Assembly (NCBI RefSeq): GCF_000739375.1
Contig: NZ_CP006704.1
Span: forward strand, 5,952,001 to 6,016,000
Length of the DNA stretch: 64,000 bases
Direction: 5' to 3'
Source: Comamonas testosteroni TK102
Lineage (GTDB): Bacteria > Pseudomonadota > Gammaproteobacteria > Burkholderiales > Burkholderiaceae_C
Shown: one piece after another, positions 14,064 to 33,338 of the stretch
Layout of the letters: each line of letters starts with the position of its first letter
Numbering within the stretch: position 1 is the stretch's first letter
Translations under genes and position numbers: made by a program
Notes under the pieces: model-generated
What the model saw: the letters and a program-made list of their open reading frames with translations, nothing else
What the model was told of the DNA's origin: nothing
Database searches by the model: none

Positions 14064-14066
14064 GCT

Positions 14067-15752: not shown

Positions 15753-15829
15753 ACTCACAATAGAAACAAGTCGGCACATTCCTACAGAGGTGCCGCATTC
15801 TTCAACCTTCGTTCCCGTTAGGACGCACT

Positions 15830-16297: not shown

Positions 16298-16316
16298 GAG
16301 CAGCTTCCAAACCTTG

Positions 16317-16353
16317 AAAGCCTTGTGCGGTGGCCGCTGCACAAGGCTTTTTT
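16317..16353 (+). terminator. Rho-independent terminator
   Basis: Arms AAAGCCTTGTGC (16317-16328) and GCACAAGGCTTT (16339-16350) with a 10-base loop, followed by a T run. It closes the transcript of the hypothetical gene before the next small membrane-protein gene. Confidence 0.9.
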
Positions 16354-16408
16354 CATGGGCCGGCAGCGCGCCAGCGCGCAGGCAGCACCTACTGCTATGC
16401 TGGGCGGC

Positions 16409-16759: not shown

Positions 16760-18391
16760 CTCTTCGACGGCACGCAGACGCGTGTCGATGATGGAGGCCT
16801 CGAAGTAATCCGCCCTGGCCCCGGCCTTGCGGGCCAGATCCTGGGCCGCCTTGAAGCGATCCACCGCTGCCGCATAGTCATAGTGGGCCACCTGGGCCTC
16901 GGCCTCGGCCCGCAGGGCGCGCATTTCCTGGCCCTGGCTGCGCCATACGCGCGCCAGCGTCTGCCAGGCCGAACCATCGCGGGGATGGTCCGTCACCCAG
17001 GTCTGCAAGGGACTGGCCATGGAGCCTGCCTGGTTGAGCCTGAGCAGGATCTCCGTCTTGAGCAGCAGCTCCGGCCTGCGCGGCGCAACCCGCTCCACCA
17101 CGTCAATCGTGGCCAGACTGGGCCCGGCCTCGCGCGGCCCGGCCTCACGTGGCCCGGCCAGATTGCCACTGGCCGTCGCCTTGGGGGCAGCCTGGGGAGC
17201 CAGCACCGACTGCAAGGGCAAGGCAACCAGGGCCGCCTGTGAATTGTCGGCCTTGAACTCGAGCTCGGCATTCAGCCATCGGGCCTGGATATTCGCGGGT
17301 GCATTGCCGGCCGTCGCCGTGAGCAGCCGCTGCACCATCTCGCGCGCCAGCGGCCAGTCGCGCAGATACATGGCGCTGAGCGTGGCCGCATAGAGCTGAG
17401 CGACCTGCTCGAACTGGCTCAGACTGGAAAAACTGCCGGAACGCGGCAACGTGGCCCACTGGCGGCGCACCTCGACACCGGGGTTGGAAATCACACGGGC
17501 GCGGGCCGACATCATCACATGCTCCAGCGTAGGCACGGGGTCGGCCGCGCGCTTGCCGGGCGGAATGCGCGAATCCATGTCCGCGATACGCTGGGTAGTC
17601 AAGGGGTGGCTGCGCAGATAGGGCCAGCTGCCGTTGTCGTTGAGCCGGCTGGCCTGCTGCAGCTTGCCGAACATGCTCACAAAACCCTGGGGAGCAAAAC
17701 CGGCAGGAGACATCAGGCTATAGCCCATGCGGTCCGCCTCGCTCTCCATGGCGCGCGAGAAATTCAGCTGGTTCTGCATCACGGCCGCCGGACCGCCCAT
17801 CATGATGGCCATGGCCGCATCGGGGCTGCGCGTGGCCGCCAGGGCGCCCAGCAGCATGGAAGCCAGCATCAGCGGCGTCTGCTTGCCCTGCTGCGCCATC
17901 ATGCGGGCAATGTGGCGCTGGGTGATGTGGCTGGTTTCATGGGCAATGACCGAGGCCAGCTCATCGCCGCTGCTGACCACGCCGATCAGTCCCAGATAAA
18001 CGCCCATATAGCCGCCGGGCAACGCAAACGCATTGACCTGGCGATCCTTGCCCAGCAGCAGCGTCCAGGCAAAGCGCTCCTCCAGCTCGGGCGACAGCTC
18101 GCCATTCTTGCGCGCCGCATCCTGCAGATGCAGCCAGATGCCTTCCACATACTCCTGCAGCACCGGGTCATCCAGATAGTCCGGGTCGCGGTACAGCTCG
18201 CGGGCGATGGAGTCACCCAGGCGCCGCTCCTCGCCCGTGGTCAGCGACGAGGCACCGTCACCCAGAGTCGGCAAACCCGCCGCCAGGGCACCGGGTGCCA
18301 AAGGTGAGACTGCTTGAATAGCTATCAAAACAGAAGCTGTCAGGGCTTTTAAAATATGAACTTTACGCAGTTTTGGCATCAAAAATGGCAT
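16718..18391 (-). CDS. M48 family metalloprotease with TPR-like C-terminus (BepA-like)
   Basis: A periplasmic zinc protease of the BepA/YfgC type, which in E. coli helps assemble or degrade outer-membrane proteins. A signal peptide occupies roughly the first 40 residues ([22 protein letters not shown]). The zinc site HETSH is at about residues 151-155, counting from the chosen start, with the third ligand in [10 protein letters not shown]. The C-terminal half is helical and TPR-like. Length is somewhat above E. coli BepA (487). The start is ambiguous: GTG at 18400, ATG at 18391 or ATG at 18379, without a clear ribosome site; the signal peptide is included in all. [17 protein letters not shown] micro-repeat occurs in the linker near 17120-17160. 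Confidence 0.9.
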
Positions 18392-18579
18392 GGCAATCAC
18401 AGCATTGCCGGCTTATGGATCTTCCATATGCCGACCGTTCAACACCCCACTATGATGCCTTGATTGATGGAGACGGCGACATGCCCGCCTGGGATGCCCA
18501 GGTAAAGCCGCCAGTCCGTCCCCGCTCAACCGTGATTGGGCGGCAGAACCCAAGCCGTCTGCCGCCGGAAAGAACCGCC

Positions 18580-19092
18580 ATGTCCTCTCTTACCCACTTC
18601 GACGCCCAGGGCCAAGCCCATATGGTGGACGTCGGCGCCAAACCCAGCACCCATCGCATCGCCGTGGCCGAAGGCCGCATCACCATGAAGCCGGAAACCC
18701 TGGCCATTGTGCAGGCCGGCACGGCCAAAAAAGGCGACGTGCTGGGCGTGGCCCGCATCGCCGCCATCATGGCCGCCAAAAAAACCAGCGACCTCATTCC
18801 GCTCTGCCACCCCCTGGCCCTGACCCGCGTGGCCGTCGAGTTTGAGCTGGAGCCCGAATCCAGCTCCATTCTCTGCACCGCCACCGTCGAGCTAAAAGGC
18901 CAGACCGGTGTGGAAATGGAAGCCCTGACCGCCGTACAGGTCGGCCTGCTGACGATCTACGATATGTGCAAGGCGGTGGATAAGGGGATGGTGATGGGCG
19001 AGGTCAGGGTGCTGGAGAAGCGGGGGGGGGAAGTCGGATCACATGGTTTAAAAGCAACCGTCAATTACATATACCCGTCAGATTATATTTAA
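18580..19092 (+). CDS. moaC: Cyclic pyranopterin monophosphate synthase, 3' end frameshifted
   Basis: Second step of molybdenum cofactor synthesis: forms cPMP from the MoaA product. Conserved MoaC segments are present: the active-site region LIPLCHPL (about residues 70-77), [12 protein letters not shown] and [11 protein letters not shown] with the catalytic Asp/Lys. The usual C-terminal motif is EKRGGKSG. Here the run of nine G at 19022-19030 shifts the frame, giving [13 protein letters not shown] and an unrelated tail to 19092. With eight G the protein would end at a TAA at 19049-19051 after [11 protein letters not shown], a normal length. The start at 18580 begins [19 protein letters not shown]; the frame is open further upstream. 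Confidence 0.9.
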
Positions 19093-20722
19093 TTGAATAT
19101 TCTTCGGCCTTAAGTATACCAAAACGGCCAAAGAAAGACTCTATGATCAATTCTTGATTCTTTGCTTCATCACATTTACCCATTTTCAATAAAAATAAGT
19201 AATACTGGCGCATTGTTATGAGCCATGGAAAGCGTTTAGAGATTATCCTAGCGGACTCCACATTTTCCTCGTCTATATCAGAGGATGGAGTAGTTCTTAA
19301 TACCTTCACAAGCCCTTGGTACTGGCTCAAAATTAAAGACGAAGAAGCGTACTGGTGCAATTCATCGTCTTTTGTATAGAACTGTTCCTCTAACAAGGAA
19401 GCCCGAAAATCATTTTCAATTTTCAAATATTCCCTGCCAACAACAACAGACAGCACTAATGAGAGAAAAATAAATATCCAAATTAATTTTTTAAAATTCG
19501 ACGAAATAAGTTTTAAAAATTTTGTATTTCCTTCGACTACCCCCATAAAAAATACACACGGCAACATAAAATACATATATGCAAATGGATACTCTAGCAT
19601 ACTATGTACCGCAATTGGTAAAATCAATAGAATTGCACATTGAGAAGTAATTACAGATTTTTCATTGCCTTTAGCAATTATATTGCCGTGCAAGGATCTT
19701 ACCATCCAAAATATCAGCGCTATTGCAATTACTCCACCAACCGGAACTCCAAACCAGATCATCAGATCCAAAAACAAATTGTGGGCATGATCCATGTTCT
19801 CCGCACCGCCAATGTTCACGGTAAAATTTTGCTGGGCTGCCCCGAGATTCAACCATCCCCAACCAATGAATGGTTTTTCAGAGATCGCCGCATACATTTG
19901 CTCCCATAGCTTATAACGCGTTGTACTTAATCCTGAAAATTCTCGCGCAGCACTTCCACCGAAGAAATTGGATATATCCGCCCATTTAATGAAAATTGCC
20001 CAATAGAGCAATAAGGAGATTGAGACCCAATGTAGGGATTTCCTGAAATCCTTAATAAAAAATACCACAACCGCCATAATCGTAATTGATAATGCACCGG
20101 TTCTAGACTGGGTTGCGACTAATGTAAAAACAAGAATTACAGAAGCACTATACAACCATAAACCCCGTATCTTCTTGTTTATATCGAAATAAAGCAATGA
20201 TACAAGCGCCATTAGCAATAATGTAGCCAACTGATTAGGCTGTGCAATATTGCCATAAACTCGGCCCTTGCTGGGGTACATAAACATCCCTTACTCTACG
20301 CCTTGCCATTGAGCAAGGCCCACAACACTGTTTATCAAAGCGCCGAGGAGAATCGTCAAGAATACGATATCTATCTTTGAAATATTTTCATAATTCACAC
20401 AGTCTCTCTGCTCTATTAAAGATAAAATTCCGAGAGAAGAAGACATGCAGCAGTATGCTGACAATAATATCAAAAATACAAGATCTCCGAGACCAATCAA
20501 TCCAAGGAAATACTGAACTATAGAGATAACGGCTAACAGAGACAAGCAAATATAGATACGTATCGGTATAAGTGTGACCCCCCCCCATAGCAATACAAAT
20601 CCAGCGCAAGCAAATGCTTCCTGCAAAAAAGTGTTCCAGGGTGATATGTGGTCCGGAATTACCCACATCAGCACTAAAAAAACACCAGCAGTTAATTGAC
20701 TATATTTCTTGAAATAAGACAT
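19061..20722 (-). pseudogene. O-antigen-ligase-like (PglL/TfpO type) pilin glycosyltransferase, in-frame stop
   Basis: A multi-membrane-span protein of the Wzy_C/PglL class, split by a TAA at 20291-20293. Both parts are in the same frame and only two codons separate the stop from the next ATG, so this is a nonsense change, not a frameshift. The first part (143 residues) has several hydrophobic helices; the second (408 residues) starts in the conserved region YGNIAQPNQLATLLL and has the ligase core GWGWLNLGAAQQ and AHNLFLDLMIWFGV. Genes of this family next to pilA attach O-linked glycan to pilin in Pseudomonas and Neisseria. GC content is well below the left flank, suggesting a transferred block. 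The second part could still be made as a truncated protein, but the family needs its N-terminal helices. Confidence 0.8.
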
Positions 20723-20747
20723 AAAAAAAGCCCCCTGGCGGAGGCTT
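20723..20747 (-). terminator. Terminator after pilA
   Basis: On the minus strand AAGCCTCC and GGGGGCTT pair around GCCA, then a run of seven T. The T run touches the ATG of the downstream glycosyltransferase-like gene (20722), so most pilA transcripts should stop here and only read-through would express the next gene. Confidence 0.85.
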
Positions 20748-20764
20748 CTCTGACTGAATAGATA

Positions 20765-21271
20765 TTACTTGCAGGATCCGGGCAGGTATTTGCTAATAGT
20801 CGTGGAACCGCCACTGCACTTCCAGCTCACAATTTGCGAGCCTTGGTGATTCGAAGCTGCATCAACCTTCAGTGCCGTTGTGTTAGCTGTATCCATGAAT
20901 GGTTCCAGCTTGACCGTATCGCTGGAGCCGAGCGAAACACCCAGTGCAGCCGTATCAGGAGTGACAGTAATAACTCCATTGGCAGTTGTTGCCACAGATT
21001 TCACCATCTTAGAAGGATTGGAACCTGCACCAGTAGGGTTGGCCTCACAGCCCCATCCATTGGCTGAACCTGTAGAAGTTGTATTCATCGATTGCACCTG
21101 CTCGCTAATCGAGGTACGGCACTGAGAGGCAGCCAGCACCACTTCGGCCATGCGAGCCTTTACTGTGTAATCCTTGTAAGCAGGCAGAGCCACGGCAGCC
21201 AGAATACCGATGATCGCCACAACGATCATCAGTTCGATCAGGGTAAAACCCTTTTGAATGGAACGCTTCAC
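20765..21271 (-). CDS. pilA: Type IV major pilin
   Basis: 168-residue prepilin. A short basic leader (MKRSIQKG) is followed by the processing site and hydrophobic helix [20 protein letters not shown]; PilD cleaves after Gly8 and methylates Phe. The Glu at mature position 5 is present. The C-terminal domain has cysteines in [21 protein letters not shown] and the final PGSCK, giving a C-terminal disulphide loop. A Ser/Thr-rich stretch near the C-terminus (SGGSTTIS) could be a glycosylation site, since a pilin-glycosyltransferase-like gene lies just downstream. A sigma-54 promoter sits 36 bases upstream of the start codon. Confidence 0.95.
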
Positions 21272-21306
21272 TTCAAACTCCCTAGTTGGATGAGACCCAA
21301 GGTATC

Positions 21307-21324
21307 AAGCAAGCTGCATGCCAA
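21307..21324 (-). promoter_or_regulatory. Sigma-54 promoter of pilA
   Basis: Minus-strand TTGGCATGCAGCTTGCTT matches the -24/-12 consensus TGGCAC-N5-TTGC, with GG and GC exactly 10 bases apart. Transcription would begin about 12 bases downstream, giving a short leader before pilA. This fits control by a PilR-type activator and RpoN, as in Pseudomonas pilA. Confidence 0.85.
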
Positions 21325-21459
21325 CAATTTGACAGAGGCAGAGCCTGCAACAGACGACACGTTTGGCAACACGAACGCGAGTTTGAGTAACAATTTTGGC
21401 GTTCCCGTCACAAGCAATGACAAATTTGTCAGGCTCTTGGTGCAAGTCAAGCCGGCTTC

Positions 21460-22179
21460 TCACTCCACGACAAAGCGCATGGTGCTGCCTGCCAGGTCCA
21501 CAGTGTCGCCATTGAGCAGGGGCACGGAGAGCGGTCCGACTACCTGGCCATTGAGCTTGAGGTCTTCGCTCGCACCTTCCAGTTGGGTAAGCACAAAGCC
21601 ATGGGGCTTCTGGGTGATGGAAGCAATGGCTACCCCGGGCTTGCCCAGGGTGGTGACGACCTTGAAAAGCGCTATTTCCTTGCCTGCCAGGCTGCCGGTG
21701 AGCATGCGAATCACGGCGTGACGCTCCGGCAGTGCGGCAAGCGAGCCCTGAATGGTGGAACTGAAGCTGGAGATTTCGCCAAACCCGGAAGGGCTGGCCA
21801 GTTTGGCATGGCTGCTGTCTGCCTCTTCCGAAATATGCGCCAGCGCTGTCTTTTTTCCGCCCTGGGCAGACGCAATATGGGTATCGGGGATCACGGTGTC
21901 GAGAAAGCGGATCTTGTAACGCCCAATGTCCAGCAGGTCGCCGTTGAGCAGATACTGCTTCTGGATGGCACGGCCATTGACATAAGTGCCGTTGGTGCTG
22001 CGCAAGTCCTCGATGCTGACCTTGCCGCCAGTGATGGTGAGCACGGCATGCTCGCCGCTGACCGCCAGATTCTCGATCACGATGTCGTTATAAGGACGAC
22101 GACCCACGGTCGTGCGCTCCTTGGTGAGCTGCACTTCCTTGATGACTGCGCCGTCGATTGAGATGACCAAAGTCGGCAT
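21460..22179 (-). CDS. FHA domain protein
   Basis: About 239 residues with an N-terminal forkhead-associated domain that binds phosphothreonine peptides. Key FHA residues are seen in TTVGRRPYNDIVIENLAVSG (the GR and the S-x-x-H, continuing EHAVL) and in LRSTNGTYVNG. The C-terminal third (MLTGSLAGKEIALFK... then LLNGDTVDLAGSTMRF) looks like a second, weaker FHA fold. The ATG at 22179 has an AGGAG site; the open frame extends 20 codons further without protein-like content. It is the gene upstream of pilA, but pilA has its own promoter, so a link is not shown. No kinase partner is seen. Confidence 0.88.
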   Translation of the reverse strand: MPTLVISIDGAVIKEVQLTKERTTVGRRPYNDIVIENLAVSGEHAVLTITGGKVSIEDLRSTNGTYVNGRAIQKQYLLNGDLLDIGRYKIRFLDTVIPDTHIASAQGGKKTALAHISEEADSSHAKLASPSGFGEISSFSSTIQGSLAALPERHAVIRMLTGSLAGKEIALFKVVTTLGKPGVAIASITQKPHGFVLTQLEGASEDLKLNGQVVGPLSVPLLNGDTVDLAGSTMRFVVE

Positions 22180-22419
22180 GCTCGAAGCTCCTGAGGAAAC
22201 GCCAAGTCCCGCTTGGCTGCACTGGCAGAGATCCCTCACACTTGAGTGTGTGATTCAGCGCCCGGACATTAATCGTAACCGGATGAAACGCGCCTGGATG
22301 CAGCATCTTATTTCACTAATTCGATGAAGCCAGGGATCCGATTGAAATTTTCAACTCTGCTGCCATTCGCCTGCAACATCCATGGAATTGTTCCTGCAGC
22401 CTCTCAGTCACCGCAAAGA

Positions 22420-22451
22420 AAAAGCCCGCGCTGATGGAAGCACGGGCTTTT
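22420..22451. terminator. Bidirectional hairpin
   Basis: AAAAGCCCG (22420-22428) pairs with CGGGCTTTT (22443-22451), with further GC pairing inside. A/T-rich ends allow action on both strands. It may mark the end of a transcript belonging to the flanking chromosome. Confidence 0.75.
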
Positions 22452-22636
22452 GCAGATTCCTGGAAAGCGGCAACTTCCGCCAGTCCGTGAATTAGAACGG
22501 TAAAAAGCACCTAATTGTGTTGATAGTTATAGGAGGCCAATGAATCTCAACGTTCTGTCATTCTACTATCTAAATTTTGTTCATAGCAACTACGCATGCG
22601 ACCTCGCTCAGCTCAAAAACCTCAAATGATGCAAAT

Positions 22637-22645
22637 TTGTTGATA
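22637..22645. repeat. Candidate left attachment repeat TTGTTGATA
   Basis: The 9-base word TTGTTGATA occurs here and, in the same direction, at 63672-63680 between ginA and the ssb terminator. Further TGTTGAT(A) words lie at 22518-22525 and, inverted, at about 63612-63619. Clustered copies at both ends suit recombinase core-binding sites. Excision between the two direct copies would release about 41.0 kb. Confidence 0.35.
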
Positions 22646-22801
22646 GTGGCAAAAGCAGGACGTTCAACCCCCCCTGCTTAAGCACCAAGTTGCGCAGTTC
22701 GCCGGGGTCAATACATTGCTGGGCTTAGGTCGTGAGGGCAGGTTCATCGGCACGATGGCTAAGTGGCCATCCCCCACATGACCCGCCTCAGGGCTACGCA
22801 C

Positions 22802-23956
22802 TCACCCAAGGTGAGGCCTCGAAATCCTGGCTATGTTGAGAAGTTCAGGATTGCGTGGGTACTCATCAAGAGCGACTTGAATCAATGACTCGTAGGAGAT
22901 GTCGACTCCACCACCACCGCGCGAAAGCAGCCTGAGGGCGGCATGCCAGCCGGCACGTCCGTTGGTCGCCCTACCCAGGGCAGCGATATCTCCTCCAGCC
23001 CGTGACCAAACCTCGTCGTGTTGCGGTCCTGAGGGAAAAAGGTCAACGAGAAGCCTTTCGAGCTTAGATTGGTCAACGCTAGGTCTACTCTGCGTCAAGT
23101 GGCTCGCCGAATGTGGATTTGTACTGTTTGTATCTGCGGCCTTGAACCATCCGCCCTTGCGCAAGGCTAGAGGGAAATTGGTTTCAGCATGCATCTTTAT
23201 CACGGGATGCTGCACATGCCCGTGAACGGGATTAGCAGGAACTTGGGAAGAAACGTACTCGAACAAGTCGAAAACTCTGACGAGGCCATCCTTCCTCTCG
23301 TCACCTGGTGCGCTACCACTGAGGCCCTCGAGTAGAAAAAATGTGAAAAGACTATGGCCTTTGGCAGAGTATGTAATTGATGTCTCATCTTCTTTGCATG
23401 ACGAGATGACAACGCGTCCGGCACCAGATGCGAGCTTCTCAAGGGCAGGAGCCCGAAAACCAAACGGAAGCTTCATCCCATCGCCATAGGCCTTTAGCTG
23501 CACGGCACCATCGGAATGACATGCATCAAGGATGACAACTACCCGCGCAGCAGGAATTGCATTAATAAGTGCGCTGAGCTGACCTGCCTCGATACCTGTT
23601 CCATCGGGGTCTTCACGGTCGTAATCAACCGGGCAAAGAAAGGTCTTCGAGCCTTCGCCATCTGGTAAAAGCCCCCCGTGACCGGAGAAGAAGACTATCA
23701 CCGTATCGTTTGAAGTTGCCGATTCCGAGAGCTTGCGCAAACCGTCAAAAATAGCGTCGCGGGTCGCATGTTCATCCAGCAAAAGCAGAACGTTGTCCTC
23801 GGGATAGCCACAGAGGTCTGGCCTTGTAAGCACGGCGGCGAGACCCTCTGCATCAGCACGAACCACAGCAGGAAGCTGCAGACTGCCAGGGTAGCCTTGG
23901 CCAATTCCAATCAAGAGAGCCCTGCCGGAGTCGAAGCTGTTCTTCAAGGTACTCAT
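22802..23956 (-). CDS. Caspase-like protease with C-terminal EAD1 domain
   Basis: 384 residues. The N-terminal C14 caspase fold (about 10-260) has the catalytic His93 in FFSGHGG and Cys146 in ILDACHSDG. After a linker (about 265-293) the C-terminal 80 residues resemble effector-associated domain 1 (EAD1): VWSRAGGDIAAL, GRAGWHAALRLLSRGGG and a YPRNPEL end. EADs are small helical domains that bring effectors to partners carrying the same domain. The ATG overlaps the stop of the upstream GAP1-like gene (ATGA), making this the last gene of a five-gene operon. The likely role is an effector that cleaves proteins once the GTPase module senses an invader; targets are unknown. Confidence is high for the fold, moderate for EAD1. 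Confidence 0.9.
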   Translation of the reverse strand: MSTLKNSFDSGRALLIGIGQGYPGSLQLPAVVRADAEGLAAVLTRPDLCGYPEDNVLLLLDEHATRDAIFDGLRKLSESATSNDTVIVFFSGHGGLLPDGEGSKTFLCPVDYDREDPDGTGIEAGQLSALINAIPAARVVVILDACHSDGAVQLKAYGDGMKLPFGFRAPALEKLASGAGRVVISSCKEDETSITYSAKGHSLFTFFLLEGLSGSAPGDERKDGLVRVFDLFEYVSSQVPANPVHGHVQHPVIKMHAETNFPLALRKGGWFKAADTNSTNPHSASHLTQSRPSVDQSKLERLLVDLFPSGPQHDEVWSRAGGDIAALGRATNGRAGWHAALRLLSRGGGGVDISYESLIQVALDEYPRNPELLNIARISRPHLG

Positions 23957-26445
23957 ATCCAGAATTTTTCTCGTTGAAGTTGGCGTAAGGCGTCGCTATT
24001 GCTGAAATCTTCGAGCATCTCGTTGAGTAGTGCTGAGACGCCAGGTCTCATTCCTACGCGCAGTTCACGCAAACAACGATGCCAACTTGCCTTACCAGAT
24101 TGCTCTCGAATTAAGTCTTCCGGTCGACCTCCACTACGGCTCCAAAGTTCTCGCTCCCATGGTCCTTCTGGATACCTCACGACAGCCTCCGCTTCGAATG
24201 CTTGCCAGGCTTCATCAGTTGAAAGGCGCAGCTGTATGTTCAACCGGTATGCAACAAACAATTGGTCAAAGTAATCAAACAACGCTAGGCACTCTTTTAG
24301 AAACGGATGAAAGTCGCTTCGAGAGTTGAAAGAGTCCTTTGCGACATGCGCTGTTGTGCGCCAGCGATTGTTGAGTGCAATACGGCCAAAGGTATAGGCA
24401 GCAGTCTCGTCGAGACGAAGGCCACTGTCTCGAACAAGCGCGAGGAACTGAGCTGCCTTGGCATCTGATTCAAAAATGAAATCCGTGAGATATCGCGGCA
24501 AAGCGGAGGGAGCACGCCTTAGGACATCCACAAGAAACCCATGAGCATGGACTTTCTGGACGACTACTTCTGCCAGTTCAGGTTCAAGAAGGCTCAATGA
24601 AAAAGTGCCATTCTCATATTGGCTAAGCCAACCATCAGCGGTTGCCGATTTGACCGCGCCTGCGTAGCGTTGCGGGATGAGCGTCCATGCGTCACTGCGC
24701 CGCTCAACATCTATAAGGTTAGCCAGCGAGCACATTGAAATAGCCCACCAGACCATGTCATCTGCTATCCGATGTGTAATCGTCAGACCGACGCCAATGG
24801 TTGGATTTGGCAGAGCATCCACGATGCTGGCAGATTTGGTGAGCGCATTCTTAAGCACCCGAAACCATGCTGAGTCTGTCCAATCGAAATGCTTAAAGAC
24901 AGCTGGCTGACGTATGCATGCATCAGACACAACATCAATGGCGGTTGCATCGCGGCTGCCTACAGAGAGAAGCACCGCCTCGGTATCAGTGCACATGCCA
25001 AGCGAGCTTTCGAGCAGCTTGTGCTTTGCTGTGGTGTTGCTTGGGGCAAGCTCAAGTGCACTTTTTAAGGACTGACTTGCCGTACGCGAGCGCGCTAATA
25101 GCGCACCTGCCAGGGTCCACCAGCCTCTGGATGCCATCTCGGAAGCGAGTGTGTTTGCGAGGGGTTCTGGAAACTTATCAGCCATGGTGGAGAGCAGTCG
25201 CTTTTCCATTGCAGCCGTTTTATCCACCAGAGACAGGACTCTCGTAATGTGATTTGGACAAGTGGTTAAGCCAGCCCAGAGTACCTCGAAGGAGGAGTCT
25301 TCGGCCTCCTTTGCTGCAAGGTTAGCTTCGAATCCTTGTCCAACGGAAGTTAACCACGCGGGTTTTGCCTTCTCGGTCGCCCATGAGCTAAGAATGCTTG
25401 CCAGTCCTTGTGAAAACGCGCTCGGTCTTTGCTTACTGACCCAGTGGGTCAAGCAGTGTGCAATGAACGTAGCGCCAGGTGACGCCGTGAGTTCGAGGTT
25501 ACGCAAAAGCAGAACATCTTGCTCAGTCCAACTTGATTCAGCATCACCCAGCCGCTTAAGGAACTCAGCCACAACGGCAGTGCGTTCAGCGCTGCTTCCG
25601 GCCCTTTCAGCAAGAATACGCAGCAACTGAATGTATTCGGATGGCTTACTTCCCGTTTGCCATAGCTCTAAAGCTTGAATTGCAATCGAGATTCCCATTG
25701 GCGAATCAAGACTAAGCTGCATCCTCTTGGCGAAATCTCGAAATGAAGCCTTCTTAGGAAGGTTCAGCAATGTAGCCGTATGCGAGCAAACCAAGTCGTC
25801 TCGACCAGACTGGTCAACGTAGCAGCCAGGGTCCCATCGTGCGCCGAGCTCTTTTGGAGTGCACACCACAGCTAGTTCATGGACGTCGTCTGGACCAAAG
25901 CTCATTCCGAAGGTAAGGCTCTTGCGAAACTCCGGTGGAACACGCGCCCAAAGCTCCAGCATTGCAGCGTCAAAACCTTCCTGCCCAACCACCACAACAG
26001 GCCTTTGAGAACTACGACTTAGAGACGCAGCTATCTGTTCGGTTAACTTTGGAGGAGCATTGCGAAGCCCGCCAATTTCGTTACTTTCAATAACTATAGG
26101 TTCGAGGCTATCGCCCTGGGTCCACGGCTCTTGCAGTGCGCTAGCCAAAGGAGAGAGGTCCTCAAGTGCTTCAACCAAATTCAGGGGGATGAAAGCGGCA
26201 CGGGACAAAACCATGCCGCCTCGGGCAGCTCCTGGAGCCGGCCGAGTAAAGATGAGTATGAGCCATTTCTGATGACTGATTAGTCGAAGGAATGGGGCCC
26301 ATGTAACCCCAGAAGGAACTGTTTGAGGCAAGTCAGTGCGCCATGCAATGTCACGGAACTCTGACTCAAAAGAGCTATTGCTTCCCTGCAAAAATGCATG
26401 CCCCTTAAGTGGGCCGAAGACTGCTTGTTGGATAAGCGCTTGCAT
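23953..26445 (-). CDS. GAP1-like GTPase-associated protein with C-terminal EAD1
   Basis: 830 residues, largely helical, without an enzymatic motif that I recognise. The start (QALIQQAVFGPLKGHAFLQG) resembles the N-terminal domain of GTPase-associated protein 1 (GAP1-N), with the Q-x-x-F/Y-G and GH motifs; the long middle part would be the GAP1 helical region. The last 80 residues (about 750-822) carry a second EAD1-like domain: LWSRSGGRPEDL, then GKASWHRCLREL. It lines up with that of the neighbouring caspase, so the two proteins probably bind each other. It starts within the stop codon of the GTPase gene (1-bp overlap). Family assignment rests on motif memory; a profile search would settle it. 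Confidence 0.72.
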   Translation of the reverse strand: MQALIQQAVFGPLKGHAFLQGSNSSFESEFRDIAWRTDLPQTVPSGVTWAPFLRLISHQKWLILIFTRPAPGAARGGMVLSRAAFIPLNLVEALEDLSPLASALQEPWTQGDSLEPIVIESNEIGGLRNAPPKLTEQIAASLSRSSQRPVVVVGQEGFDAAMLELWARVPPEFRKSLTFGMSFGPDDVHELAVVCTPKELGARWDPGCYVDQSGRDDLVCSHTATLLNLPKKASFRDFAKRMQLSLDSPMGISIAIQALELWQTGSKPSEYIQLLRILAERAGSSAERTAVVAEFLKRLGDAESSWTEQDVLLLRNLELTASPGATFIAHCLTHWVSKQRPSAFSQGLASILSSWATEKAKPAWLTSVGQGFEANLAAKEAEDSSFEVLWAGLTTCPNHITRVLSLVDKTAAMEKRLLSTMADKFPEPLANTLASEMASRGWWTLAGALLARSRTASQSLKSALELAPSNTTAKHKLLESSLGMCTDTEAVLLSVGSRDATAIDVVSDACIRQPAVFKHFDWTDSAWFRVLKNALTKSASIVDALPNPTIGVGLTITHRIADDMVWWAISMCSLANLIDVERRSDAWTLIPQRYAGAVKSATADGWLSQYENGTFSLSLLEPELAEVVVQKVHAHGFLVDVLRRAPSALPRYLTDFIFESDAKAAQFLALVRDSGLRLDETAAYTFGRIALNNRWRTTAHVAKDSFNSRSDFHPFLKECLALFDYFDQLFVAYRLNIQLRLSTDEAWQAFEAEAVVRYPEGPWERELWSRSGGRPEDLIREQSGKASWHRCLRELRVGMRPGVSALLNEMLEDFSNSDALRQLQREKFWI

Positions 26446-27296
26446 TACTGGCGGGACACTGCGGCCAAGTGGATGATAGGTAGAGTGAGGTCGGCCAGTT
26501 GCTGTCCATCACGGCCCACAACATACCCAAATTGTTCCGGTCCTTTGTTGACGAAGTCCTCATTGGCCTTCTCTTTATCTAGCTCTGTTTCAAGTGCTGA
26601 GAGGCCAAAAACTTCACATCTATCACTCCACCGACTACGAATGAACGAAGCCAAAAGTGGCAGAGTTTTTTCGAGCACATCAGCTGGCTTGGTGCCAGCG
26701 GGAAGCTTGAGTTCATCCCAGCACGAGAGCAATACGGTCATACGTGGAACGGGCCCTCTATCCCGCCCCCCTCGGGCATGGAGCAGCAATTGCAAGAGCT
26801 CCACCAACCTGGACTGAATCGTTCGGTGAGGCTTATTGTCAACCCCGTCTTCATCCGCGCGCCGTAAGTCCGCTAAAGGCCTGGAGAAGATGTCATCGTC
26901 CTGGCGCGATAACTTCGGACGAACCATCAAAATCCATCCATGTGCGGCCTGGGTTCGCTCTACCCACTCTCGGCCCATGCGCCGGGTGTCGATGAGTTGC
27001 CGTATTTGCTCTCCAGCGTAGTCTGGCCATATGAGTTCAAACTCATTGCCTTTCCCATCCTCAACTTCCCATAAGCTTTCTCGGTAGACACCCGACGGAG
27101 TATGGTCAGCCAACAGACCTGCGTTGAGCCGCTTCCTCACTTCCTCAAAGGGAGAAATGTCATCGGGGGTTGTGCGCAGCTTGAGTTCGCAGGCTTCCAC
27201 TTCAATGCGCGACAGAAGTTGGGCACCGTAGTGACTCTTACCGACATCCGACTCGCCGAAAAGCGCCACCTGAATACTGTTTCCGTCATAGCTCAT
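26445..27296 (-). CDS. TRAFAC-like GTPase of the double-GTPase system (DO-GTPase1 type)
   Basis: 283-residue P-loop NTPase. Walker A is GESDVGKS (residues 14-21). The G3 motif is replaced by IWPDYAGEQ (D-x-x-G). SCWDELKL sits where NKxD-type guanine recognition is expected. The sequence fits the first of two unlike GTPases found together in GASH/GAP1 systems. The start overlaps the stop of the next GTPase gene by 4 bp (ATGA), and its own stop overlaps the GAP1-like start, so expression is coupled. Likely a switch that passes a signal from the second GTPase to the GAP1/caspase pair; this is inference. Confidence 0.78.
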   Translation of the reverse strand: MSYDGNSIQVALFGESDVGKSHYGAQLLSRIEVEACELKLRTTPDDISPFEEVRKRLNAGLLADHTPSGVYRESLWEVEDGKGNEFELIWPDYAGEQIRQLIDTRRMGREWVERTQAAHGWILMVRPKLSRQDDDIFSRPLADLRRADEDGVDNKPHRTIQSRLVELLQLLLHARGGRDRGPVPRMTVLLSCWDELKLPAGTKPADVLEKTLPLLASFIRSRWSDRCEVFGLSALETELDKEKANEDFVNKGPEQFGYVVGRDGQQLADLTLPIIHLAAVSRQ

Positions 27297-28264
27297 GAGA
27301 GCTCTCCAAACCGTTGAAGTAAGACTGGTCCAGGCAATGGCTCATTCTGAGGTTTAAGAAAACTTGCTTTTGCGTCCAAGACCCATTGCAGCAAATCCAG
27401 AATTCCTTGACCTTGATTCAGCGTGTCGCCGTCGCTAGTTGGATGCATGCTCACGGGAAATTCAGCATGATTCACAAGGCAACGCTTCGCTGCTTCACGC
27501 ACCGCAGCCACAATTTCTTCTGGGACAGGGATATCGCACTTCGTCCATACAAGTGCCACAGGTCGCCCGCGCTGCTCTCCACCCACACGCCTCAATAAAT
27601 CGATAGTTGCTCTACGTGCTTGACCTCGCTGAGGACCTGCTAAAGCCTGAGAGTCGGCAATAACGAGAAAGACATCCGAACAGTCAGCGAGCCAGCGAGC
27701 ACCTTCGGCCTGCGTGCTCATCTTGTTCAATGTCCACTCCGTAAACCACTCTCCTGGTGCATCTGCTGCCACCAAATCACAGAGTTCGCCACTTGCCTGA
27801 AGTGCCAGATGAAGCATCCCCGGCCGACGTCCTGTACCGCTTGAGGTGTGAGGTGGAAATGAGGGGCCATGCTTGGCCGACCATCGAAGATGGCTAGAGA
27901 TGTTCTCCCACCCCTCAAGCGTTAAAGAACCCGCAAATTCCACGTGCTGAGGACGTATGCCGCGGGCAATCAGCAGATAGAAAGCGGCCAGTAAAGACGT
28001 CTTGCCCGCCTCAGCGGCCCCTGCCACCAGTAAGAGCTTGGAACTTCCCGTTCCGGCCAAATATGGGAGGTCTGTAGCGCCCATGGCGTTGCCTGTCCAT
28101 GGGAACCTAAACTCTCCGCTCAACGCGACGGGAGAGTCCTCTTCCCCCACTGTGACCGACTTGTCCGCCGCGACCCAATGCGGGCAGTCTCTGTGATTCA
28201 TTTCACCCTGCGAACAGGACATTTCCGGAGCGTTACAGCCCTCGGCTGAGCATCGACTACTCAT
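27293..28264 (-). CDS. Second GTPase of the system (DO-GTPase2 type) with N-terminal Cys cluster
   Basis: 323 residues. The N-terminus holds four cysteines (5, 10, 17, 27) and a His in CSAEGCNAPEMSC and HRDCPHW, a probable zinc-binding knuckle. The GTPase core has Walker A GAAEAGKT (82-89), the G3 motif DAPGEW and LVWTKCD as the guanine-specificity motif. The ATG at 28264 overlaps the stop of the upstream gene (ATGA), which picks it over an open extension of 21 codons. The zinc cluster suggests the sensing or docking end of the pair. Not the same subfamily as its downstream neighbour, as expected for a paired system. Confidence 0.8.
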   Translation of the reverse strand: MSSRCSAEGCNAPEMSCSQGEMNHRDCPHWVAADKSVTVGEEDSPVALSGEFRFPWTGNAMGATDLPYLAGTGSSKLLLVAGAAEAGKTSLLAAFYLLIARGIRPQHVEFAGSLTLEGWENISSHLRWSAKHGPSFPPHTSSGTGRRPGMLHLALQASGELCDLVAADAPGEWFTEWTLNKMSTQAEGARWLADCSDVFLVIADSQALAGPQRGQARRATIDLLRRVGGEQRGRPVALVWTKCDIPVPEEIVAAVREAAKRCLVNHAEFPVSMHPTSDGDTLNQGQGILDLLQWVLDAKASFLKPQNEPLPGPVLLQRFGELS

Positions 28265-29451
28265 GCCGCACCCGAGTAATCGGTAGCTTGTAAAGCCAGC
28301 AACTCGCGGAGCAGCAAGACGGCCCATTTATGTAGAGGAAGCGAAGGCTGACAGATGCAATCAGTCTCGCTGCGTTTTTGCAAAGCTGCCATGACTAGCC
28401 CGATGTGGGGCGCTTCGTTAGTCAGTTCGAGAAGACATTGCATTGCGTGTTCATTCACCTGGAGAACATCTTGAAGGTCTCGCTCTTCTTGGCTCGATAC
28501 AACACTCAAGACCGCCTCAGCAAGCAATGAATGAACCGCTGGTTCATATGCAGGCGGAATCAATCTAGACAAGTCAACCACTGCGTATATCGTGGCGTCC
28601 AATGGAGACAAGTCACGATAGGGCTTTTGGGCAGCCTCGGAATAAAGTGCTTGGCGCCACCATAGAAGGTTGGTCGAGCGCTTGAGGTTTTGGTCTGCAT
28701 TAGCAACTGAGCTAAGTCTATTCACAACTACTGCATGATTTTTTGCATCCAGCTCTGCGGCCTTGGCGATAGCAAAATCGATGTACTCCCCCAAAATCGC
28801 CGTCATCTGGTCCGCGAAATCGTAGCTCCATGGAGGACCGTCACTTGGCCAACTTCCATTTGGCTTGTCATTTGCCTCTCCATTACGGTTTGAAGGTCCC
28901 GAAGCAGACTCAAGTCGCTTTTTCAGTGATGCTCGTTCAACCTTAATAGCCTTGGCTGCAGCAGCAAGGGCGGCATTTGTACTTGAGCTTTCAGCCATTT
29001 CCACTGCTGATTCGGTCTCGAATGCTTGTTTCGACGCGTCACGTAGCATCTTGATAACAGGCTCATACTTACCGGGACGCAGCCATGGTTCAAAGTTCTG
29101 CATCAGTAACCAGATAGCCGTCCCGATGGCGGGCTGAGTCTCGACGGCATTCACCAAGGCTTGTAAGGTCACCGCACGGTATAGAGTGGTCGCAGTCCCA
29201 TCTCTAAAGGCACCTTGGTAGGTATTCCACTCTTGCTCAATTGCTGCTGCCGCGTTGGCAAACGCGCCACTATCAGAGTTTTCTTCAAATTTGATGACGC
29301 TTAGAAGGGCAGCAATTGCCGATGCTGGCTTTTCGGAAAAATCATTGGAAAGCTGTGTAGCAGCTGCCGAAAGCTTTGCCAAACGCTCATCTTCCGCGCC
29401 TAAGTCTAGAAGGCTCAATCGAAGAAATGTCCTGAGTACCGCTGCAGTCAT
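28261..29451 (-). CDS. GASH-like all-helical GTPase-associated protein
   Basis: About 396 residues, predicted all-helical, with no catalytic motif seen. The segment MTAAVLRTFLRLSLLDLGAE at the start, the middle coiled-coil region (about residues 170-220) and the hydrophobic C-terminal helices (HKWAVLLLRELLALQ) suit the GASH family, which travels with paired GTPases and GAP1. First gene of the operon. The ATG at 29451 has an AAGGGA site; the frame is open 33 codons further upstream. The assignment rests strongly on the company it keeps. The promoter must lie in the 412-bp gap shared with the Gabija-like genes. Confidence 0.65.
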   Translation of the reverse strand: MTAAVLRTFLRLSLLDLGAEDERLAKLSAAATQLSNDFSEKPASAIAALLSVIKFEENSDSGAFANAAAAIEQEWNTYQGAFRDGTATTLYRAVTLQALVNAVETQPAIGTAIWLLMQNFEPWLRPGKYEPVIKMLRDASKQAFETESAVEMAESSSTNAALAAAAKAIKVERASLKKRLESASGPSNRNGEANDKPNGSWPSDGPPWSYDFADQMTAILGEYIDFAIAKAAELDAKNHAVVVNRLSSVANADQNLKRSTNLLWWRQALYSEAAQKPYRDLSPLDATIYAVVDLSRLIPPAYEPAVHSLLAEAVLSVVSSQEERDLQDVLQVNEHAMQCLLELTNEAPHIGLVMAALQKRSETDCICQPSLPLHKWAVLLLRELLALQATDYSGAA

Positions 29452-29863
29452 TGCCCGTCCCTTACTAATTGTTTCCGTGATGACAGCGTGGATTCTAGGA
29501 TTAATGACCGTCTTCGCGCGAATGCCTTGTGGAATGGCGCGACTGAACAATTCAGCTTTAGTTGAAGTGGGTACAGTGATAGCTTAGAAGCGAAGACTCA
29601 GCTCATCTACATCATTCGAGGAGATAGTCGCTAGAAATGGCAGCACCGCGTCGAAGAGACCTCCGAGATGCAATGGTCAGTGACGTTACGGGACTTGCGA
29701 AGACTAGTTAGCTAAGCACTCAATTTTCATCTGAGTGACATTGCCTTCAATCAGGCAAAGCAAAAAAGTTACCGACTGTATTATTGAATCGACTTAAGAC
29801 GTTTGGGGTGGGCCGTCGCTATCACGAGGCCCACTCATCTCCGATTGCAATCACCGCCAACCG
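29452..29863. other. Divergent promoter region of two defence modules
   Basis: 412 bases between the leftward GTPase/caspase operon and the rightward Gabija-like pair. No gene seen. It must carry both promoters. I found no strong palindrome that would serve as a shared operator. Confidence 0.5.
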
Positions 29864-31615
29864 ATGTACCTGCACGAACTCCGAATTCAAGGCTTCAGAC
29901 GCTTTCATGACCTCAAGCTTCAGTTCAAGAAGGGTTTGAACGTGCTCATCGGGCCAAACAACGGTGGCAAAACTGCAGTTGTTGATGCACTGCGCGTGCT
30001 GCTTTCAGCCAGTGACGAAGGAAGCCTTCGACTGACTGAGCTGGACCTTCACCAACCGGAGGCAGGAAGCCGCAGCACGGAGGCCAAGTTCAACTTCATA
30101 TTCCGTGGCCTTTCAGAGCAAGAACATGCCGATTTCATCACGGCCTTAAGGCCGATTGCCGCAGGAGACAACTCCGGAGAGCGATACGAAGCTTGGTTCA
30201 CAGTTCAGTACTCCAAGGCAGATTCTGAGAGCCGTCTAAAGCTCCGTCGGTGGGTCGGAGAGCATGAAGAGAACCCCCTAACGACTGAGATGCTTGAAGA
30301 GCTCCGGGCGGTTTATCTTCAGCCTCTTCGTGACCCGGCCTCTGGACTTAAACCCGGTCGGTATAGCCAATTAGCGAAGCTACTGCACCGCCTGTCCAAA
30401 CAACCCGAACGCGATGCGTTGGAGCTGCATCTCAAGCAAATCGACCAGGACCTAAAACCACTTCCTCCACTGTCTACGACCAACACAGTCATTGGAGAGC
30501 GGCACGCAGCAATGCTTGGAAAAGAACTGGCGCAGCTTCTGGACCTTGAGCTCAGCCCAAGCGACTTCGCCCGCTTCGCATCACGTATCGGGATGTCTGT
30601 TGGCGGCATGGAAGTTGAGCAAAACGGACTTGGCTTCAACAACCTGATATTCATGGCTGTTGTACTAAGCGAGCTGGCCCTTAACAATGCTGTTTCCTAC
30701 TGCGGCCTCATCGTGGAAGAGCCCGAAGCTCATTTACATCCGCAGCTCCAGGCCGTGCTGCTCGACTACCTTAAGACTGTTGAGAAGCCCGAACAGGGGC
30801 AACGTCCAGTACAAGTGTTCGTCACTAGCCATTCTCCGAACTTCGCGGCCTTGGCAGACTTAGATTCCATTTGCTGCATTTATGACAGTCCAACCGGGCC
30901 TGCCGTCTTTGCGCCTCGCGACGTCAAGTTTGAAACAGGACAAAAGGAGAAGCTACAACGCTATCTCAATGTCACGCGGGCAGAGCTATTCTTTGCGCGA
31001 AGGCTCATTCTTGTAGAGGGCACGGCAGAACTGTTCTTACTTGACGCATTGGCAGGCAAGGCAAGCATTGATTTGCGCAAGCACTCGGTCAGCATCATCA
31101 GCACCGATGGTTTGAACTTTGACTGCTTCTTGCCGCTGTTTGGCAAGAATGCTATGCAGATTCCCGTGGCAGTTATCACAGATGCAGACCCACCAGCGGA
31201 CGTATTTCCGAGAAAGGCTCAAGCGCTACAGCTATCGGAAAATGCTGAAAAGCTACAGAAGCTGGAGGACGATTTCGTCAAGCTCTTCTTTGCACACAAG
31301 ACTCTCGAATACGACTTGGCGCTAAACCGAAGCTCTCGTGACCAAATGCTGTCTACATTGAAGCAGATGCATCCGAAAATATGTGCGGATATCGAGTTAG
31401 GCATCATCTTTGGTGGCAAGCCTCATGAGCTTGCCAAAGAAGTCTTCAGCGGCATGTTCGTAAGTCGCAGCGTTAAAAAAGGGAGCTTCGCGCAACTCCT
31501 TGCATTCGAAATCGCTAACTCAGAGGAGAACGTCGTACTCCCACGCTATCTGAAAAAGGCGCTGATGTTCGTGACTACCGCTACGCCAAAGAACAATGAC
31601 GACGATGTCCTTTGA
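29864..31615 (+). CDS. gajA: OLD-family ATP-dependent endonuclease (GajA-like)
   Basis: 583 residues, the size of GajA (about 580). The ABC-type ATPase domain has Walker A GPNNGGKT (30-37) and Walker B LIVEEPEAHLHP (about 282-293), followed by SHSPNFA. The TOPRIM nuclease has the Glu in LVEGTAELFL (about 383) and the Asp pair in VITDADP (about 438-443). GajA proteins nick phage DNA when nucleotide levels fall. It overlaps the downstream helicase gene by 20 bp, the usual Gabija gene order. The ribosome site is weak. Other OLD-plus-helicase systems exist, so Gabija is the best but not the only reading. Confidence 0.85.
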   Translation: MYLHELRIQGFRRFHDLKLQFKKGLNVLIGPNNGGKTAVVDALRVLLSASDEGSLRLTELDLHQPEAGSRSTEAKFNFIFRGLSEQEHADFITALRPIAAGDNSGERYEAWFTVQYSKADSESRLKLRRWVGEHEENPLTTEMLEELRAVYLQPLRDPASGLKPGRYSQLAKLLHRLSKQPERDALELHLKQIDQDLKPLPPLSTTNTVIGERHAAMLGKELAQLLDLELSPSDFARFASRIGMSVGGMEVEQNGLGFNNLIFMAVVLSELALNNAVSYCGLIVEEPEAHLHPQLQAVLLDYLKTVEKPEQGQRPVQVFVTSHSPNFAALADLDSICCIYDSPTGPAVFAPRDVKFETGQKEKLQRYLNVTRAELFFARRLILVEGTAELFLLDALAGKASIDLRKHSVSIISTDGLNFDCFLPLFGKNAMQIPVAVITDADPPADVFPRKAQALQLSENAEKLQKLEDDFVKLFFAHKTLEYDLALNRSSRDQMLSTLKQMHPKICADIELGIIFGGKPHELAKEVFSGMFVSRSVKKGSFAQLLAFEIANSEENVVLPRYLKKALMFVTTATPKNNDDDVL

Positions 31616-33338
31616 GCCCACCGCTGAACAGACGGCCATCATTGAAGCGGACTTAGTGTCCATGGCTATCGTGGCATGCCCGGGGAGTGGAAAGACGGCA
31701 ACGGCAGTACGACGGCTGGCTGAACTCCGTAAGCGTCTCAACGACACGAAGGGCCGAGCGGCCCTTCTCTCGTTCTCAAATGTAGCCGTAGAAACCTTTC
31801 GCGCCGAGTATCAGAAGCTTCAAGGGACGACTGTCACCGACAGCAAGGTTGCCATACAGACGGTCGACTCGTTTATTACCAACTACATTCTCAAGCCACA
31901 CTGTGCCCGCGTAATGAAATCGCGACGCATGCCGTTCCTTTGTTTAGGCGACGAACCGTTTCTTAGTGCCTACAAGATTGGTGAAGGCAAAGAGACAACC
32001 GGAGTAGCAGACATAATTCTGAACAGAGTCAGCGGAGAGACGCGCTTCTATCGGAAGGTTGGTAAGTCGGACCCAATAGCGCTCACCCCAGCAATGTCGA
32101 AGCTGGCGTTGAAAAAGCTAAACGAGTTCGCTGCTACAGGTGGGTATACGCATACGCACGGGAGAGCCTGGGCGAGATGGCTTCTGGCGCGCGAACCTCA
32201 TATTGCAAAGGCGTTGGCACTTCGATTTCCCCAAATTCTTGTCGACGAAGCCCAAGACGTAGGAACCTTCGAGGGGGAAATCCTTGACCTGCTTATCAAA
32301 GCTGGAAGCGATGTTTCGTTGATTGGCGACTTTCATCAAAGCATCTACAGCTTCAACTTTGCGACAGGCGATTACCTCCGTGCCTTCAGCGAAAGAGATG
32401 AAGTTGTAAAGTTTGAACTCACACAAAATCGCAGGTCACTACCGGCAATCGTCAATGTTGCCAATGCCTTAGCTCGAACGAAGACGACACCTCATCGAAC
32501 AACCTCAAAACTCCACTCTGGAGCTTTCTATTGGCGATACGAGGAGGACAAAGCTCGGGAGCTGATGTCTACATGGTCAAGTGCTCTACAGGCCAAAGGC
32601 TACGCATTAGCCGATGCCGCAGTACTGTGTCGCAGCTCCGACATGCTAAGCGAGCTAACCTCAGCCAGTGTCAATCTGGGTACATCAGCGGTCAAACACC
32701 TGGCGTCCGCCGCGCTGGAGCGAGACAGGAACGGTGACATTGCAAAGACCTTCCATCACTGCGTTCAAGCGGCAATTCATTTAGTCGACGTGCCAAATAC
32801 TTTCGCTCAACAGGTAAAGTCACCTGAGCGGGGAAGCGACATAGCTCAACTGCGACGATTGCTCTGGGACCTGATTCGAGACAATGCGTCCGGAATTCCT
32901 CCCTCCACACTTGAGGCGCGAGGAGAGTGGCTCACAAAGTTAAGGACAAACCTTGCATCTTGGCTGGACATCGTTGAGGAAAAAACCAAGTTCACTCGAG
33001 CCGCAACATGGACTGCTCGGGTGACTGCCAGGCGTCTTCCCGAAACAGGACCCTTACTCGGAGGAGACCTGGGTCAAAACGATTGGAACGGCCTGCGCTT
33101 GGGCACAGTTCACTCAGCTAAGGGTGAGGGAATCCCTGCAGTTATGTACCTCACCAGCAAGAAGCACCTGACAGCACTGCTTAAAGGGACTTCCAAGGAA
33201 GATGGTCGCATAGGTTTTGTTGCAGCCACACGCGCTCGAGACTTGCTCGTCGTCGCCATCCCATTAGATACAAAGCCTAGCGTTATCAAAAAGCTTCACA
33301 ATTTGGGGTTCATGGACTGGGATAGACCTGGAAGGTAA
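31596..33338 (+). CDS. gajB: UvrD-like superfamily 1 helicase (GajB-like)
   Basis: 580 residues. SF1A helicase motifs in order: I (Walker A) CPGSGKTA (about 28-35), II LVDEAQDV (about 215-222), III GDFHQSIYSFN, IV QNRRS, V TVHSAKGEG (about 504) and VI AATRARDLL (about 542). Together with the upstream OLD nuclease it forms the two-gene Gabija arrangement, in which GajB senses single-stranded DNA ends or depletes nucleotides to release GajA. It is longer than the founding GajB (494). Translation probably starts at 31596 or at the ATG at 31605. Confidence 0.85.
   Translation: MTTMSFEPTAEQTAIIEADLVSMAIVACPGSGKTATAVRRLAELRKRLNDTKGRAALLSFSNVAVETFRAEYQKLQGTTVTDSKVAIQTVDSFITNYILKPHCARVMKSRRMPFLCLGDEPFLSAYKIGEGKETTGVADIILNRVSGETRFYRKVGKSDPIALTPAMSKLALKKLNEFAATGGYTHTHGRAWARWLLAREPHIAKALALRFPQILVDEAQDVGTFEGEILDLLIKAGSDVSLIGDFHQSIYSFNFATGDYLRAFSERDEVVKFELTQNRRSLPAIVNVANALARTKTTPHRTTSKLHSGAFYWRYEEDKARELMSTWSSALQAKGYALADAAVLCRSSDMLSELTSASVNLGTSAVKHLASAALERDRNGDIAKTFHHCVQAAIHLVDVPNTFAQQVKSPERGSDIAQLRRLLWDLIRDNASGIPPSTLEARGEWLTKLRTNLASWLDIVEEKTKFTRAATWTARVTARRLPETGPLLGGDLGQNDWNGLRLGTVHSAKGEGIPAVMYLTSKKHLTALLKGTSKEDGRIGFVAATRARDLLVVAIPLDTKPSVIKKLHNLGFMDWDRPGR

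Follow-up and report, generated by a model that had tools for sequence, protein, structure and literature searches.

Five genes on the minus strand, running from position 29451 down to 22802 of the window (the 64,000-nucleotide stretch of Comamonas testosteroni TK102 DNA that was analysed), encode in this order a GASH protein, DO-GTPase2, DO-GTPase1, GAP1 and a caspase-like protease. The features of the locus are as follows.

28261..29451, minus strand: GASH protein (396 aa), first gene; PF19994; AlphaFold model
27293..28264, minus strand: DO-GTPase2 (323 aa); PF19993; four N-terminal Cys; ATGA overlap with the GASH stop codon
26445..27296, minus strand: DO-GTPase1 (283 aa); PF19975; alignment of relatives
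23953..26445, minus strand: GAP1 (830 aa); PF20012, and PF19955 below its cut-off; structure model
22802..23956, minus strand: caspase-like protease (C14) with C-terminal EAD1 (384 aa); PF00656 and PF19955; His93/Cys146
29452..29863, no strand: intergenic stretch from which the operon and the Gabija genes diverge; presumed to hold the promoters of both

The longest open reading frames on this strand are 22802-23956 (384 aa), 23953-26445 (830 aa), 26445-27296 (283 aa), 27293-28327 and 28261-29550. This list sets the starts of the first two genes too far upstream, and the internal ATGs at 29451 and 28264 fit. The former yields a GASH protein of 396 aa and agrees with the operon end in a first-pass annotation of the DNA; the latter yields a DO-GTPase2 of 323 aa that starts just ahead of a four-cysteine motif. 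Calculated with these starts, the junctions overlap by 4 (ATGA), 4, 1 and 4 bases, as expected from the five leftward genes with 1-4 bp overlaps that the annotation had described. The operon is single-copy in the 6.06 Mb genome, where GASH and DO-GTPase1 each occur once and EAD1 was detected at one place, in the caspase (the same search missed the EAD1 of GAP1).

All five frames are open and the catalytic motifs are intact, which makes it highly improbable that the operon is a decayed or silent remnant without function, even though no sigma-70-like site was called within 29452..29863 (a scan of 22300-29900 gave 2 sites, with a shuffle mean of 4.0) and GAP1 is divided between frames in three relatives (L006, L017 and L072). 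The split frames in these three reflect either decay or sequencing error.

The operon belongs to a predicted class of conflict systems

From the domain content of its products, the operon is identified with certainty as a member, with a caspase effector, of the GAP1-N1-type GTPase-centric conflict systems, a class already predicted from genome comparison by Kaur, Burroughs, Iyer and Aravind (Kaur et al., 2020; PMC7159879). The composition in that account includes a GAP1-EAD1 protein paired with an EAD1-fused effector, caspases being among the effectors. The operon has the same parts: GASH, two DO-GTPases (one with a zinc-ribbon-like N-terminus), a GAP1-N1 protein with C-terminal EAD1 and, in a further gene, an effector with EAD1. 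The EAD1-coupled MoxR-vWA ternary systems also have EAD1 in common between core and effectors, caspases included, but their core consists of AAA+ MoxR and vWA proteins without GTPases, GAP1 or GASH (PMC7159879). Pfam, helped by relatives in the case of the GAP1 EAD1, bears out all five domain assignments of the first-pass annotation and places the GTPases in the DO-GTPase families, not in housekeeping ones. NCBIfam left four of the five proteins without a match (E ≤ 0.01) and matched the caspase below cut-off; of the five, the caspase is also the only one matched by PADLOC (E 5.4e-14).

The 2020 account and its 2021 sequel (PMC8195603) are the substantive accounts found in open-access PMC, where the term DO-GTPase also occurs once in PMC11237479. 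Searches of titles and abstract starts in open-access PMC, which leaves most preprints and subscription papers outside, returned no experiment on these systems, in agreement with the annotator's knowing of no experimental account. The first-pass annotation saw in the locus a candidate for an undescribed mechanism; the class had already been described by Kaur et al.

The gene order is conserved in relatives

Relatives were sought in a collection of one genome each of 84,980 species with an alignment of 39 DO-GTPase1 sequences, for which 38 of the 120 homologues among the matches listed (915 found) were used. The scan requires an exact match to either of two peptide patterns and gives at least 79 loci (80 matches); the requirement favours nearer relatives, so the effector frequencies below do not stand for the class as a whole. 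Locus L001, that of the genome itself, is left out of the counts of relatives. Selection was by DO-GTPase1 only, and the other operon proteins had no part in it.

GASH and DO-GTPase2 were found with our own profiles in all 79 relatives among the matches listed, always in the same-strand order GASH, DO-GTPase2, DO-GTPase1, and GAP1 comes next in 77 of these 79; in the other two (L053 and L065) the contig ends there. EAD1 is present in 75 of the 77 GAP1 proteins, the exceptions being L006 and L072, where GAP1 lies in two frames. With L006 and L017 left out for their split GAP1, as also in the rate comparison below, the median gap is -4 bases at each of the first two junctions (n = 78 for both), -2.5 at the third (n = 76) and +16 before the caspase (n = 57), counts to which the window contributes; the gaps were taken from longest-ORF starts, so the overlaps are overstated. 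Apart from two GASH-DO-GTPase2 gaps, none exceeds 60 bases. The arrangement recurs in at least 79 relatives and is therefore more than chance; among these 79, relatives with the genes apart, which would have told against the annotated set, were not encountered.

GASH and the two DO-GTPases

The first-pass annotation proposed two unlike GTPases and a helical starter protein, and Pfam places all three above cut-off in GASH, DO-GTPase1 and DO-GTPase2. The GASH protein matches PF19994 with 174.4 bits (E 5.8e-51, cut-off 27) and is all-helical in the AlphaFold model (mean pLDDT 89.4), with one helix of 63 residues (206-268). Pfam detects no FNIII match in any of the five proteins at E ≤ 0.1; as in the class, GASH takes the place of an FNIII protein.

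DO-GTPase2 (PF19993, 195.3 bits, cut-off 27) has the P-loop GAAEAGKT, followed by DAPGE and TKCD. Its N-terminal C5, C10, C17 and C27 are invariant among the 80 aligned proteins, one of them that of the window, and appear by sequence to form a zinc-ribbon-like motif, so that the pair would correspond to the class trait of two DO-GTPases, one with a zinc-ribbon N-terminus. DO-GTPase1 (PF19975, 255 bits, E 1e-75, cut-off 27) has the P-loop GESDVGKS and DYAGEQ, and CWDE replaces NKxD. Both proteins keep the P-loop lysine and the glutamate behind the Walker B aspartate. The latter residue, E96 (DYAGEQ) in DO-GTPase1 and E172 (DAPGE) in DO-GTPase2, occurs in at least 93% of 80 proteins in each case, and in our reading is the conserved Walker B glutamate of the class of Kaur et al. 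The difference between CWDE in DO-GTPase1 and TKCD in DO-GTPase2 (both assigned by eye) suggests that the pair may not handle nucleotides alike. No solved structure was matched in profile searches with DO-GTPase1 (E ≤ 0.01) or GASH (E ≤ 0.1).

GAP1 combines a conserved N-terminus with a C-terminal EAD1

GAP1 consists of the GAP1-N1 domain (residues 5-103; PF20012, 71.8 bits, cut-off 27), an alpha/beta region (about 117-200), helical repeats (about 221-735) and a C-terminal EAD1 (741-826), and its structure model has a mean pLDDT of 92.6. The EAD1 of the window protein scores 18.7 bits with PF19955, under the cut-off of 24.2. We accept it because Pfam matches EAD1 at E ≤ 10 in 57 of the 60 GAP1 proteins aligned and because a profile seeded with the GAP1 EAD1 retrieves the effector EAD1s. 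Of the GAP1-EAD1 protein named in the first-pass annotation, the GAP1-N1 part thus stands by its own score and the EAD1 part with the help of relatives. The Pfam domains GAP1-M and GAP1-C were detected neither in the window protein nor, at E ≤ 10, in any of 60 GAP1 proteins, and GAP1-M appears at E 0.06 in one of 30 N-terminal stretches; these models may represent the N2 type.

We tentatively suggest, with more doubt than confidence, that the GAP1 N-terminus is a bacterial DENN-like module (longin, alpha/beta unit, helices) that would act on the DO-GTPases as an exchange factor or a GTPase activator, with Arg75 or Asp38 as the acting residue; Arg75 is invariant and Asp38 near-invariant. The DENN module is composed of longin, DENN and d-DENN parts and occurs in Rab exchange factors. 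No DENN family was found by Pfam at E ≤ 10 in 60 full-length and 30 N-terminal GAP1 sequences, nor any DENN chain at E ≤ 10 in a PDB profile search with the N-terminus, searches that remote homologues would escape. The sole PDB match of the N-terminus at E ≤ 10, a naphthoate synthase (E 1.1), is regarded as chance, and the GAP1 profile matched no solved structure at E ≤ 0.1.

The protease resembles metacaspases

The product of the last gene matches Peptidase_C14 (PF00656) with 67.5 bits (cut-off 21.4) and carries an EAD1 (PF19955) of 32.4 bits (cut-off 24.2). His93 and Cys146, the intact dyad pointed out in the first-pass annotation, are present in every one of the 63 aligned caspase-domain sequences, comprising that of the window and 62 plus-strand locus ORFs, of which a few are not the effector of their operon. 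D35, S91 and D144 each occur in at least 93% of the 63 and align with residues of solved metacaspases. The nearest solved chains by sequence (7qp0, 6w8s and 3bij; E 5.4e-7 to 1.3e-6) comprise metacaspases and GSU0716 (3bij), an uncharacterised protein. The His-Cys dyad and an acidic residue two positions before the Cys are shared with metacaspases and orthocaspases, from which the window protein differs in its C-terminal EAD1 and operon context.

In MCA2 of T. brucei, D95 and D211 matter for the binding of basic substrates, and in a modelled orthocaspase of Nostoc, whose catalytic residue is C134, D132 together with E176 plays the same part (PMC8283722). Asp144 stands two residues before Cys146, like D132 before C134; the mapping of D35 and D144 to MCA2 numbering is our own. 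The predicted S1 pocket for a basic P1 residue would be formed by D35, S91 and D144, and from the alignment with metacaspases we predict cleavage after Arg or Lys, not after Asp. The caspase_w_EACC1 model (NF047832) gave 111.9 bits and did not reach its cut-off of 140. The two-gene EACC1-caspase systems likewise have a bacterial caspase-like effector, but the remaining genes of the window operon encode GASH, two GTPases and GAP1.

Different EAD1-linked effectors are found on one core

A caspase gene follows GAP1 in 58 of the 79 listed loci, and its EAD1 is seen in 57 of the 58. The remaining loci carry other effectors: PNP-like phosphorylase (11), trypsin (2), TIR/SEFIR (2), metallophosphatase (1), STAND-like (1) and an unknown N-terminus with EAD1 (1), with no effector visible in three.

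PNP-like phosphorylase: L043, L059, L060, L064, L067, L068, L070, L076, L078, L079, L080
Trypsin: L063, L069
TIR or SEFIR: L072, L073
Metallophosphatase: L062
STAND-like protein, 2155 aa: L074
EAD1 with unrecognised N-terminus: L071
Effector not visible, contig end: L053 and L065 (downstream side), L075 (upstream side)

Non-caspase effectors lie upstream of GASH in 14 loci and downstream of GAP1 in four (in L063 on the opposite strand). The recurring pattern is an EAD1 in GAP1 accompanied by a second one in the effector, of whatever kind it may be, although the effector EAD1 of L043 was seen by our own model only and those of L063, L068, L074 and L078 score below the Pfam cut-off. The window operon has this class trait, with the GAP1 copy below cut-off and backed by relatives. 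EAD1 was proposed as the coupler of GAP1 and effector by Kaur et al. (2020; PMC7159879), who list phosphoesterase, PNPase, TIR, trypsin and caspase effectors; our set overlaps theirs and confirms rather than extends their picture. In that account the commonest effector of the class is a calcineurin-like phosphoesterase, in contrast to the caspase in 58 of 79 listed loci here, a difference that selection of the relatives may explain.

The EAD1s of GAP1 and effector from the same locus are on average 0.341 identical, compared with 0.317 between loci (74 loci, window included; reached in 0 of 2000 permutations). The values are 0.364 and 0.351 for 57 caspase loci (1 of 2000) and 0.265 and 0.233 for 17 non-caspase loci (0 of 2000). 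Shared ancestry inflates this signal. Regressing out the other parts leaves, in caspase loci, an EAD-EAD partial correlation of r = 0.14, computed on a joint EAD alignment (reached in 9 of 500 permutations). The GAP1 EAD1 and the caspase catalytic domain give a partial r of 0.25 (above 300 of 300 permutations; fewer controls); tracking the catalytic domain at least as well counts against a special EAD-EAD bond. The comparison lends weak support to cognate EAD1-EAD1 pairing.

The same machinery could employ the caspase as a regulated signalling protease that cuts one partner encoded elsewhere, antitoxin-like or a proenzyme, and not as a general death protease; bacterial immune proteases elsewhere can activate a partner enzyme (PMC12799240), and the relatives include non-proteolytic effectors, which means that the core is not necessarily bound to proteolysis. 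We consider this rather unlikely, since in the flanks of 80 loci (296 genes of at least 100 aa, up to two per side) no family stands beside the caspase form in more than four of 58 caspase loci, the largest cluster being alternative EAD1 effectors, and since the EAD1 search of the genome itself found only the caspase, even if it passed over GAP1. The absence of a fixed neighbouring substrate leaves room for one encoded elsewhere.

Genomic neighbourhood and distribution

The operon diverges, across a gap of 412 bases, from a complete Gabija system at 29864-33338 (plus strand), GajA (583 aa) and GajB (580 aa), with best PADLOC scores of 807 and 710 bits. Beyond Gabija lies a Fic protein (34302-35351, plus strand) with a weak helix-turn-helix-like N-terminal match and weak likeness to the SoFic model of PADLOC. 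A catabolic-looking region follows at 35776-46680, with SDR and aldehyde dehydrogenases, a Rieske oxygenase with ferredoxin reductase, a TctC receptor, a LysR regulator and a mandelate-racemase-like enzyme. Downstream of the operon, 16718-22239 (minus strand) encodes an M48 peptidase, a pilin-glycosylation-ligase-like protein (Wzy_C, PglL_A), a pilin and an FHA protein; the GC content drops from 0.64 (1-18400) to about 0.49 (18401-22500). No tRNA was found in the window. In an empty-site comparison one flanking protein was matched in 6 of 20 relatives (24-31% identity) and the other is many-copy, so that neither anchors an insertion site.

At E ≤ 1e-10, 127 neighbour genes of relatives (of 277 listed; the EAD1 effector L063:8876-9874 excluded) matched 186 PADLOC families, and 128 genes (of 214 listed) in a control of 16 stretches from 12 genomes and the window's own matched 19. 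The top families have two members each among the neighbours and three in the control. We claim no enrichment of defence genes, because many of the models are redundant, the top families match so few members and the number of distinct proteins matched is not given. Near the GTPase operon of L019, L030, L058 and L066 lies a second module of two genes, a caspase-like protein of 550-670 aa and an alpha/beta-hydrolase-like protein of about 290 aa; the partner family also occurs in L063. Pfam gave weak scores for the pairs of L030 and L058 and no match for the large protein of L063. A gene of about 490 aa stands upstream of GASH in L042, L045, L047 and L052; those of L042 and L052 encode DUF900-type alpha/beta hydrolases by Pfam.

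The relatives are mostly Pseudomonadota and by record titles cover several phyla, including Streptomyces and kin, Truepera, myxobacteria, an acidobacterium, a planctomycete, a cyanobacterial MAG and others. DO-GTPase1 has a patchy distribution, being present in three of 36 other genomes of the same genus (all three copies with all five genes, caspase included) and in one of 24 of the same order. GASH was present in none of 368 other genomes drawn from across the class. The same-order locus L114 has DO-GTPase1 and DO-GTPase2 with no GASH or GAP1 match by our profiles, and is perhaps a more distant subtype. Relatives of DO-GTPase1, the only protein searched for here, are on 13 plasmid records, nine predicted conjugative (25-44% identity). 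The sole phage match is in a Leptospira phage record (KF114878.1, 15594-16382; 31% identity), on which the GTPase system may ride; viral contigs gave no DO-GTPase1 relative.

The adjacent Gabija genes, the patchiness, the plasmid relatives and the exchange of effectors are typical of conflict systems. They make it improbable that the operon has a role outside defence, as a programmed-death module for general stress or the cell cycle carried on mobile DNA, a reading that would agree with the lone PADLOC match among the five proteins. We know of no phage phenotype for these systems, which also fits such a role.

Proposed switch and effector are conserved, the GAP1 middle and GASH diverge

Over 57 matched loci the mean pairwise identity is 0.506 for DO-GTPase1, 0.493 for DO-GTPase2, 0.494 for the caspase EAD1, 0.468 for the caspase domain, 0.471 for GAP1 residues 1-103, 0.421 for the GAP1 EAD1, 0.401 for GASH and 0.311 for GAP1 residues 104-739, the most divergent part. 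The density of columns kept in at least 93% is 16.4 per 100 residues in DO-GTPase2, 15.2 in DO-GTPase1 and 2.8 in GASH (80 proteins each), and 2.5 in GAP1 (78 proteins). By these alignments, the switch and the effector are conserved and the GAP1 middle and GASH diverge. We would look for the sensor in the latter two, although relaxed constraint gives the same pattern.

Discussion

The operon is probably a complete GAP1-N1-type conflict system that uses a caspase as effector; most likely it acts abortively against phages or mobile elements. In the chain of four steps that we propose, DO-GTPase1 and DO-GTPase2 would form a switch pair, bound by GAP1 through its conserved N-terminal module. The fast-evolving helical middle of GAP1, perhaps with GASH, would sense or gate the trigger. 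Once the switch flips, the C-terminal EAD1 of GAP1 would gather the EAD1 tails of caspase molecules, and clustering would render the protease active, so that cleavage after basic residues would stop or kill the infected cell. The first-pass annotation spoke of a complete signalling chain; Pfam confirms all five components, and we infer every step between them, as well as the trigger and the substrate, from the domains. A sensing role of the GAP1 middle is suggested by its divergence, which relaxed constraint would explain too, and GASH is also divergent (identity 0.40).

Since 2020 the class has existed as a prediction, and the operon in the window is a compact, intact, single-copy example beside Gabija. 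These properties, with one recognisable effector, make it well suited to testing how GTPases could gate a caspase in a non-eukaryote. The effectors exchanged naturally on a shared core supply ready-made chimeras with which to ask whether EAD1 is the sole docking requirement. If the DENN-like reading of the GAP1 N-terminus were true, a GTPase switch of the eukaryotic Rab/Rag kind would gate a bacterial caspase, and bacterial conflict GTPases would be tied to a type of regulator from eukaryotic membrane traffic.
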